From positions 1-58,682 of the IMG/VR virus record IMGVR_UViG_3300012685_000005: 58,682 bases of DNA. The stretch is one strand, 5' to 3'. This DNA is from a virus. Positions 36,073-38,205 of this stretch are shown piece by piece (within the stretch, counting starts at the first letter, position 1; every line of letters starts with the position of its first letter). Below the pieces are notes generated by a model, which did not search any database, was not told the origin of the DNA, and was given only the letters and a program-made list of their open reading frames with translations. A program made the translations under genes and the position numbers.

Positions 36073-37134
36073 CTAATTGGCTTTCGCAGCACGATCTTTC
36101 CACCCTCTAACGTTGGCCCGCGTCGGACCGTAGCTGTAAAGATCGGCCAATTGATTCGGCTCGAACTGATCGCAATGTGTGAGCACGAGTTTGTATTCGC
36201 CAGCCGCGTCCGCAGCGCAGCGGGTCCGCAACTCATCGTCGAGCCGCGCGAAGCGGATGCGGCCTTGGAATGGGTGATAGACGTTCGTATCATCGGCGTA
36301 AGAGAGCGCCGGATTCTCCCCAGGCAGCGGCCCCGCGCCGTGGCGCGTGAGATAGGTCCGCGACACATAGTAGGGCTCAACCTCAGTTATCCCAGCCTGC
36401 GCGCAGAGCGTCCGCACGTTCTTCATGCCGGTGCTGGAGTGCGTCACATGCGGGTGGAACTCCTTGCGATCCTGGTCAAGCAGCAAGCCCTGTGCGCCCT
36501 CGAAGATCGGGTCCCTGCATTGGCCTATACCGGCCGGATGCACGGCATCGGCGAACTCAGCGCACGCCTTGAGGAATAATTCCGTCATATGCGGCTCATC
36601 GATTGGCATGCCGGTGCGGAACTTGGCGTAGCGGTCGCAAATCTCGGCGATCTTTGCCGGGAGTGCGGCGGAGCGATTCCACAAGTCGCTCATCGTGATC
36701 TTGATCTCGCTGACGGCAGACCGCTGGATAGTTTCGTGGATGCCGACGCCGCAGCTACCGTGAGCCTGCGCGCCGCGCTTCATTTCCTTGCGCTGATTGA
36801 TGATCATGTCAGCGAAGGTCGATATCAAACAGTCAGGATGGGCGAACACGTCGGCGGTCACGCCCATTGCGTGTAATTGCGCCAATTCCCGAAAGTAGAT
36901 AATCGGATTGCAGATGAAGAATTGAGACAGAAAGGTCGGTACTCCGTACAGAGTACCGGACCCAAAATGCGCGAACACATGGCGCAGGCCTTCCGGCGTT
37001 GACACCGTGTGCCCGGCCTGCGCGCCGCCATTGAAGCGAACGACGACTTCGCCCCCTGTTTTGCACAGGTAATCGGTTATGAGGCCCTTGCCTTCATCGC
37101 CGAAGTTCGCTCCGATGACGGCGCGCGCCTTCAT
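36073..37134 (-). CDS. Adenylosuccinate synthetase superfamily enzyme (PurA/PurZ-like)
   Basis: Encodes 353 residues, shorter than E. coli PurA (about 430). The P-loop region reads GANFGDEGKG with D13 (the catalytic Asp in PurA, often replaced in phage PurZ), followed by FNGGAQAGHT with H42 matching the PurA catalytic His. Later landmarks are GSCGVGIHETIQRS, EGAQGLLLDQDRKEFHPHVT and 'VLTHCDQFEPN' for the purine loop. PurA makes adenylosuccinate from IMP, Asp and GTP. PurZ uses dGMP to make the 2,6-diaminopurine precursor. Which one this is cannot be decided by eye: D13 is kept, as in PurA. Overlaps the VWA gene. Confidence 0.8.
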   Translation of the reverse strand: MKARAVIGANFGDEGKGLITDYLCKTGGEVVVRFNGGAQAGHTVSTPEGLRHVFAHFGSGTLYGVPTFLSQFFICNPIIYFRELAQLHAMGVTADVFAHPDCLISTFADMIINQRKEMKRGAQAHGSCGVGIHETIQRSAVSEIKITMSDLWNRSAALPAKIAEICDRYAKFRTGMPIDEPHMTELFLKACAEFADAVHPAGIGQCRDPIFEGAQGLLLDQDRKEFHPHVTHSSTGMKNVRTLCAQAGITEVEPYYVSRTYLTRHGAGPLPGENPALSYADDTNVYHPFQGRIRFARLDDELRTRCAADAAGEYKLVLTHCDQFEPNQLADLYSYGPTRANVRGWKDRAAKAN

Positions 37135-38042
37135 TATGGCGCTCCCAGCATCTTCGGTGCTGCACCCCGAGGCAGATGTTTGACCGCATCGAGCACTACC
37201 GCAGCCGAAGTACCCCAGCCGGCCGTGGAGGCGTGAGCATCGCGGCCTTCTGCCACCTCAATCGCAGACACGATGGTTTCCGCCAGTTTCGTATGGTCGT
37301 CCAGTTGGATGACGTGCTGTCCCATCAACGGCTGCCAGGTCGCCAGCACTCCCGAGAGGTTGCTGCGCGCGTGATTGCCCTCCTTGATGACGATGTGATA
37401 GCAGTCGTACATGCGCTGCGCTTCCTCTAGTAGCTCGGAACTGGAGTAGTCACGCTCCGCGCCATCGTCCAAGAATTGCAGCAGTTTGGCTTTCTTGAGT
37501 CCCGGCCCGATGGGCTCATCGCCAATCGTGAACAGATACCCGCGCTTGTCGCGCTTGATTAGCGAATCATGGACGGTATGCTTGGCAGCGAAGTACCACG
37601 GAAATTCGTAGCTCTCGTGCCCGTTGCCGCCGCCGTTGCCCTCGAGATAAATCTCAGTCAGTTGTTCGACGATGCGATTGTCCGCCTCGAACTGGCTGAC
37701 CTGCAGCGGCGCGGAGTCGCATTCCGCATCCCCGAAAGCCATGAACATCAAGTGCGGATTCGTGACCGGCTTGCGGGCCAGAATCGACTCGAACAAGATG
37801 CCGAGACCCTTCCGGGCGATCACATCGGCGATCATGCCCATGCTACCCGTTACGTCGATCGCCACAATGATCGGCGTTGCGGCCGGGCTATCGACGCTAT
37901 CGCGAGATTCGCGGACCTTGACGCCTTTTGGATTCAGCGCGTCTTTGATAGACCGCGACGTGTATACCTGCTCGGTCGTCTTGCCGACCGTCGTGCTTGC
38001 ATAGGCACGATACTTACCCGGATCGAATGTTCCACCACCCAT
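37134..38042 (-). CDS. VWA domain protein with MIDAS motif
   Basis: Encodes 302 residues. The N-terminal 55 residues are polar, then a VWA fold: IIVAIDVTGSMG (D63-x-T65-x-S67, the metal-ion-dependent adhesion site), 'HLMFMAFGDAECD', 'GGGNGHESYEFPW' and 'GYLFTIGDEP'. VWA domains act as metal-dependent protein binding modules. Its stop overlaps the PurA/PurZ-like start (TAATG), implying coupled production. No MoxR ATPase was found nearby. Partner is unknown. Confidence 0.75.
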   Translation of the reverse strand: MGGGTFDPGKYRAYASTTVGKTTEQVYTSRSIKDALNPKGVKVRESRDSVDSPAATPIIVAIDVTGSMGMIADVIARKGLGILFESILARKPVTNPHLMFMAFGDAECDSAPLQVSQFEADNRIVEQLTEIYLEGNGGGNGHESYEFPWYFAAKHTVHDSLIKRDKRGYLFTIGDEPIGPGLKKAKLLQFLDDGAERDYSSSELLEEAQRMYDCYHIVIKEGNHARSNLSGVLATWQPLMGQHVIQLDDHTKLAETIVSAIEVAEGRDAHASTAGWGTSAAVVLDAVKHLPRGAAPKMLGAP

Positions 38043-38043
38043 C

Positions 38044-38205
38044 TCAATCTCCTTGGCGCATAGAGCGCCATTGTTTAAGTTCCTCGGAATCCACCCACAG
38101 ATGCCCGTTCGGCTTGAACGGGATCGGCCGGTCTAATGCGCCGTCCAGCTTCTCCAACTCCTCGATCTCGGCCGGGTCGGTGACCGGCGTGAATTTGTTC
38201 GCCAT
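38044..38205 (-). CDS. 53-residue protein upstream of the VWA gene
   Basis: Encodes MANKFTPVTDPAEIEELEKL, then 'RPIPFKPNGHLWVDSEELK' and an Arg-rich tail, with an acidic N-terminal half. The gene ends one base before the VWA start. Spacing and codon use support it. It is probably a small partner or regulator in the VWA-PurA/PurZ-like set. Function is unknown. Confidence 0.6.
   Translation of the reverse strand: MANKFTPVTDPAEIEELEKLDGALDRPIPFKPNGHLWVDSEELKQWRSMRQGD

Follow-up and report, generated by a model that had tools for sequence, protein, structure and literature searches.

A third branch of the PurA superfamily paired with a VWA protein in phages and bacteria, and its possible tie to NAD- or ADP-ribose-related nucleotide metabolism

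The virus record examined here, a stretch of 58,682 bases (the window), carries a PurA-like gene whose start overlaps the stop of a gene for a VWA protein. Is the enzyme an ordinary PurA, a PurZ or PurZ0-type enzyme for Z-DNA synthesis, or something different, and what does the VWA protein have to do with it? Since the window has no terminal repeats of at least 20 bases, the record may be incomplete. The minus strand carries, in this order, a 53-aa gene, a 1-base gap, the VWA gene, a 1-base overlap (TAATG) and the PurA-like gene (Table 1). This order and spacing had been described in a sequence-only reading of the window and is confirmed by the coordinates. The 53-aa gene is kept in only two close relatives and for this reason was rejected as a core part of the module. 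The VWA and PurA-like genes are probably translationally coupled, with products that probably act as one complex.

Table 1. Positions of the genes discussed, given in window coordinates.
Feature	Coordinates	Strand	Remarks
53-aa gene	38205-38044	minus	Upstream of the VWA gene; ends ..GGAGATTGA
VWA gene, 302 aa, phrog_2971	38042-37134	minus	AGGAG before ATG; MIDAS D63/T65/S67...D175
PurA-like gene, 353 aa, PHROG_1211, almost certainly of a third superfamily branch	37134-36073	minus	Pfam PF00709, residue tables, tree
NUDIX-domain protein, 327 aa	25844-26827	plus	Pfam 1.3e-23; distant from the pair, among late/structural genes

Bacterial genomes were scanned with a VWA profile, and the best 80 of the 498 confirmed stretches were analysed. 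Although these loci were picked by VWA alone, a PurA-like gene adjoins the VWA gene downstream on the same strand in 79/80, and the single exception is cut by a contig end. After removal of near copies the two genes adjoin in 55/55 bacterial loci. Among non-redundant viral PurA-like loci, 98/102 carry a VWA gene, which is adjacent in 74 and lies within 2.6 kb in 21 more (95/98 of the VWA-bearing loci). Divergence of the VWA proteins correlates with that of the PurA-like proteins (Mantel r 0.635, against at most 0.143 after shuffling). Homologues of both genes occur in the same named phages, namely Bixzunavirus mycobacteriophages (~189 records) and Rhizobium and Vibrio phages (10 and 6 records, respectively). 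The VWA gene is directly upstream of the PurA-like gene in Va1, RHph_Y65 and a gut phage, and an 89-aa gene separates the two in Sebata. Genes found between them in some phages are phage-specific (T4 neck and tail-sheath proteins, homing-type ORFs) and were therefore rejected as a common third component. The VWA partner proposed for the window enzyme is thus strongly conserved in other phages and in bacteria, and the two proteins very likely form a functional pair. No paper on this pair and no biochemical work on a family member was found among the open-licence literature, and the module is apparently widespread and undescribed in phages and bacteria.

The VWA protein had no match in a Pfam search. 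An AlphaFold2 model built from 36 homologues (pLDDT 89.8) was assigned a VWA/integrin-I fold by Foldseek, with matches to integrin I-like and Ku80 VWA domains. All 36 homologues keep the MIDAS-type residues D63-x-T65-x-S67 and D175. The MIDAS site reported as intact in the sequence-only reading is accordingly conserved, as a DxTxS variant rather than the textbook DxSxS. MIDAS sites are carboxylate binders.

In 64/80 bacterial and 74/184 viral loci the VWA gene is preceded by a gene for a ~345-aa protein. Its AlphaFold2 model (pLDDT 94.7) has DnaJ-PKA chimeras as top Foldseek matches. At the N terminus is a J domain whose HPD motif is conserved; the kinase fold that follows lacks, in the family consensus, the HRD and DFG aspartates (HNG, GGWWY). 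In Sebata a protein kinase-like gene occupies the position of this J-domain pseudokinase. The window's own clade has the bare two-gene form without it. Several other genes were seen near the module. Of the 184 viral loci, 25 and 15 have, immediately ahead of the VWA gene, members of two Met-rich phage protein families that had no Pfam match (for example locus L002, 6246-6959, and L005, 6483-7091). RNA-repair-type genes (TROVE/Ro60-like; Thg1) are near the module in some phages (L002, 11378-12886; L070, 5551-6249). A DUF4291 protein is encoded directly upstream of the J-domain pseudokinase in three Lachnospiraceae loci (L225, L227, L231).

The commonest domain in proteins flanking bacterial modules is NrtR_WHD (33/129), with NUDIX in 24, and an NrtR-type gene lies within 3 kb in 50/80 bacterial loci. 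Only 24 NrtR domains are present in 20 module genomes, and comparison of positions showed that about 11 of them are no more than ~7 kb from the module. ADP-ribose is the signal sensed by NrtR (PMC9503650, section 3.8). Genes for NAMPT, NAPRTase, nicotinamidase-like proteins and PARG also recur near modules: NAMPT within 4 kb of 13/102 viral loci, PARG in 3/80 bacterial loci and NAPRTase at L248. One run in Clostridium beijerinckii HUN142 (L222) comprises NrtR, an isochorismatase-fold gene, NAMPT, PARG, the J-domain pseudokinase, VWA and PurA-like genes. Against this, NAMPT is common in large phages regardless (22-33%; PMC9503650), and NrtR-family regulators may also control non-NAD genes, as AraR does (PMC4666351). 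As a candidate for a shared NrtR operator, a TTAGTA-N6-TACTAA-like palindrome (≤3 mismatches) is only weakly enriched upstream of the module, occurring at 23 loci with about 11 expected. It recurs in promoters beside NrtR-type genes, and is upstream of the module in L226, L215, L220 and L229. Beside the window copy there are no NAD-linked neighbours, an NrtR-type repressor included. The window's only NAD-related gene is the distant NUDIX ORF, which may encode an NAD/ADP-ribose hydrolase that is packaged in the virion, as has been reported in other phages. For bacterial loci the NAD link is strong; among phages it is weaker, and the window itself lacks it. Taken over all loci, the module is likely to be NAD/ADP-ribose related.

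One alternative is a system that counters ADP-ribosylation or responds to stress. The nearest design in the literature is that of the ARG-centred systems, which combine Nudix repressors with VWA proteins (Iyer et al. 2022; PMC9503650). By analogy the VWA and J-domain proteins would be chaperones for ADP-ribosylated clients, and the PurA-like enzyme would process released ADP-ribose-type nucleotides. The Nudix-type repressor, the VWA 'chaperone' and the PARG of three loci resemble that design. However, PARG is found in just 3/80 loci, that paper makes no mention of PurA-like enzymes, and the seven proteins searched had no match among the PADLOC anti-phage defence models. We consider such a system unlikely.

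What the enzyme itself has kept and lost bears on the remaining explanations. It matches Pfam PF00709 (E=4.4e-38), and its 353 residues are a normal length for its own clade, whose members have 337-355 aa against a family median of 400. In E. coli PurA, D13, H41 and Q224 run the 6-phosphoryl chemistry, N38, T129, T239 and R143' hold the IMP 5'-phosphate, R303-R305 bind aspartate and D333 reads guanine. The window protein keeps D13 and H42 (E. coli H41), as had been noted from the sequence, together with K16, Q215 (Q224), T231 (T239), R294 (R306) and D322 (D333). In the sequence alignment, on which the ligand reading depends, the changed residues are Q39 (N38), C128 (T129), H265 (V273) and Q290 (T301), and the Arg303-305 cluster is absent. 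The same pattern runs through the family (n=158). D13, K16, H41, Q224, T239 and R306 are retained, and the D333 equivalent is kept in 132/158 members and is Asn in 25. N38 is replaced by Gln in 153, T129 by Cys/Val in 155, V273 by His in 158 and T301 by Gln in 157, and R303-R305 show no conservation. Newly conserved positions include an HxFxHFGSG stretch and, family-wide, an Arg that precedes R143 by four residues and is R138 in the window. R138 could replace R143, so that binding of the phosphate may have been rearranged and not lost. Because the catalytic residues are retained and the ligands of the IMP phosphate and of aspartate are replaced, the chemistry of PurA is probably kept and the substrates changed. 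In a Paenibacillus and a viral contig, inteins interrupt the PurA-like gene right after the catalytic NGGxQAGH (L266, 8905-11214; L177, 3403-5925). Intein_splicing is below cut-off in both, and L177 also contains LAGLIDADG.

A remodelled aspartate site combined with kept base chemistry is also what a nucleic-acid or protein modification enzyme would show, if the PurA-like ligase joined an amine (an amino acid, a peptide or a VWA-presented protein) to an inosine-type base. The carboxylate binding of MIDAS sites and the RNA-repair neighbours (Thg1 in 4/102 and TROVE in 2/102 viral loci) are in keeping with this, but no DNA or RNA modification partner is consistently present, and NrtR and NAD genes are more frequent. 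Such a role appears improbable.

If the gene were simply an ordinary PurA that provides extra AMP in the course of infection, the retention of D13, K16, H41, Q224, T239 and D333 would be explained. This phage PurA option, also raised in the sequence-only reading, is made very unlikely by the replacement of Asn38, Thr129, Val273 and Thr301 and the family-wide absence of Arg303-305, that is, of IMP-phosphate and aspartate ligands. The window protein also scores far under the cut-offs of the NCBIfam PurA models (104 and 90 bits versus 402 and 396). A separate second PurA gene is present elsewhere in 20/20 bacterial genomes checked, in one case as a 72-position fragment at a contig end, and an extra PurA would leave the near-invariant VWA partner unexplained. 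A tree of 78 rows, made by a quick method with SH-aLRT support only and with archaeal PurA left out, separates three supported groups: PurA (99), PurZ plus PurZ0 (100) and the PurA-like family (99), within which bacterial and viral members are interleaved. Placement within ordinary bacterial PurA, which would have counted against an unusual enzyme, was not seen. The idea of a non-standard PurA-superfamily enzyme is supported by the tree and by the altered substrate ligands alike, and we are highly confident that the family is a separate PurA-superfamily branch and not PurZ.

The specific suggestion of a PurZ0-type enzyme fares worst. In PurZ and PurZ0, Ser replaces Asp13, and archaeal relatives have Ser or Gly there. 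The residue was Ser in 7/7 PurZ/PurZ0 sequences in our comparison and is Ser in 100% of phage PurZ/PurZ0 (PMC12884076). A tblastn search of the window, with partial queries for the Wayne polymerase and DutZ/DmtZ and on a record that may be incomplete, gave no match to the Z accessory genes DatZ, MazZ, DpoZ or DutZ/DmtZ; the sequence-only reading had likewise seen no DatZ, MazZ or DpoZ. A PurZ or PurZ0-type enzyme making the diaminopurine (Z) precursor from dGMP is of the same superfamily and matches the PHROG_1211 and RefSeq labels, but it is extremely improbable given Asp13 in 158/158 members, the position of the family outside the PurZ clade, 36 bits versus a cut-off of 300 with the NCBIfam PurZ model, a window without Z accessory genes, and the many members that are chromosomal genes in bacteria also having ordinary PurA. 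Membership in PurZ/PurZ0 was rejected on the tree, residue 13 and the accessory genes, and Z-DNA synthesis by the PurA-like enzyme is not supported. The name '2-aminooxy adenylosuccinate synthetase' (e.g. L004) is given to the PurA-like family, PurZ and PurZ0 alike and on the PurA-like family is probably a mis-annotation.

The best reading is a third PurA-superfamily branch that is paired with a VWA protein and serves NAD/ADP-ribose-related nucleotide metabolism, with the window representing the two-gene form; we give it an even chance of being correct. Under this reading of a VWA-paired branch, the enzyme would still use GTP because the Asp333 equivalent is kept. With Asp13 kept, it would phosphorylate a ring C=O beside an N-H, as on hypoxanthine, and a 2-amino purine such as guanine is disfavoured. 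Given the altered ligands of the 5'-phosphate, plain IMP would not be the substrate; the neighbours would be in keeping with a dinucleotide of the NAD or ADP-ribose type. Since Arg303-305 are missing, free aspartate is improbable as the attacking amine, and another amine would probably take its place. This specific type of reaction is rather doubtful. The VWA protein would bind a metal-dependent carboxylate or peptide ligand and position or regulate the PurA-like enzyme. In larger versions the J-domain pseudokinase may recruit the enzyme or pass a client to it. A repressor that senses ADP-ribose would probably activate the bacterial module upon NAD breakdown, whereas the phage module would help to maintain NAD or nucleotides in infected cells. 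Tentatively, these elements could make up a new enzymatic system found across phages and bacteria. Its PurA-type ligase, rebuilt at the amine and nucleotide site, would be held by the VWA protein and the J-domain pseudokinase, would be under the control of an ADP-ribose sensor, and would make or repair a purine-modified NAD/ADP-ribose-type nucleotide.

About 190 sequenced mycobacteriophage records contain a member of the branch, as do at least several hundred bacterial loci, and it is often labelled as a Z-DNA synthesis enzyme, a label its residues do not support. Its near-constant VWA partner, together with the J-domain pseudokinase and the NAD-type repressor, suggests a nucleotide pathway that has yet to be explored, and NAD and ADP-ribose chemistry is now central to phage-host conflict. 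The proposal is directly testable in culturable hosts and phages, namely Bixzunavirus in M. smegmatis, Vibrio phage Va1, C. beijerinckii and Massilia.

Four known systems resemble the module in part. With PurA (PF00709) it shares the sequence family, the P-loop, Asp13, Lys16, His41, Gln224, Thr239 and, in most members, the guanine-binding Asp333. Unlike PurA, the family has Gln for Asn38, Cys/Val for Thr129, His for Val273 and Gln for Thr301, lacks Arg303-305, forms a separate clade and is nearly always near a VWA gene, in hosts that already have PurA. PurZ and PurZ0 of Z-genome phages are phage-borne members of the same superfamily, whereas the PurA-like family has Asp13 rather than Ser and His for Val273, is a separate clade, is common in bacterial genomes, and in the window is without Z accessory genes. 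Some loci share an NrtR-type regulator and NAMPT, NAPRTase and NadM-like neighbours with NrtR regulons and phage NAD+ salvage (NadV/NadM; NARP), but the core enzymes of the module are not known NAD enzymes and the window copy has no such neighbours. The ARG-centred systems are alike in their Nudix-type repressor, VWA protein and ADP-ribose theme (PMC9503650). ADP-ribosylglycohydrolase is rare in the module loci, however, and the core of the module is instead the PurA-like enzyme and the J-domain pseudokinase.
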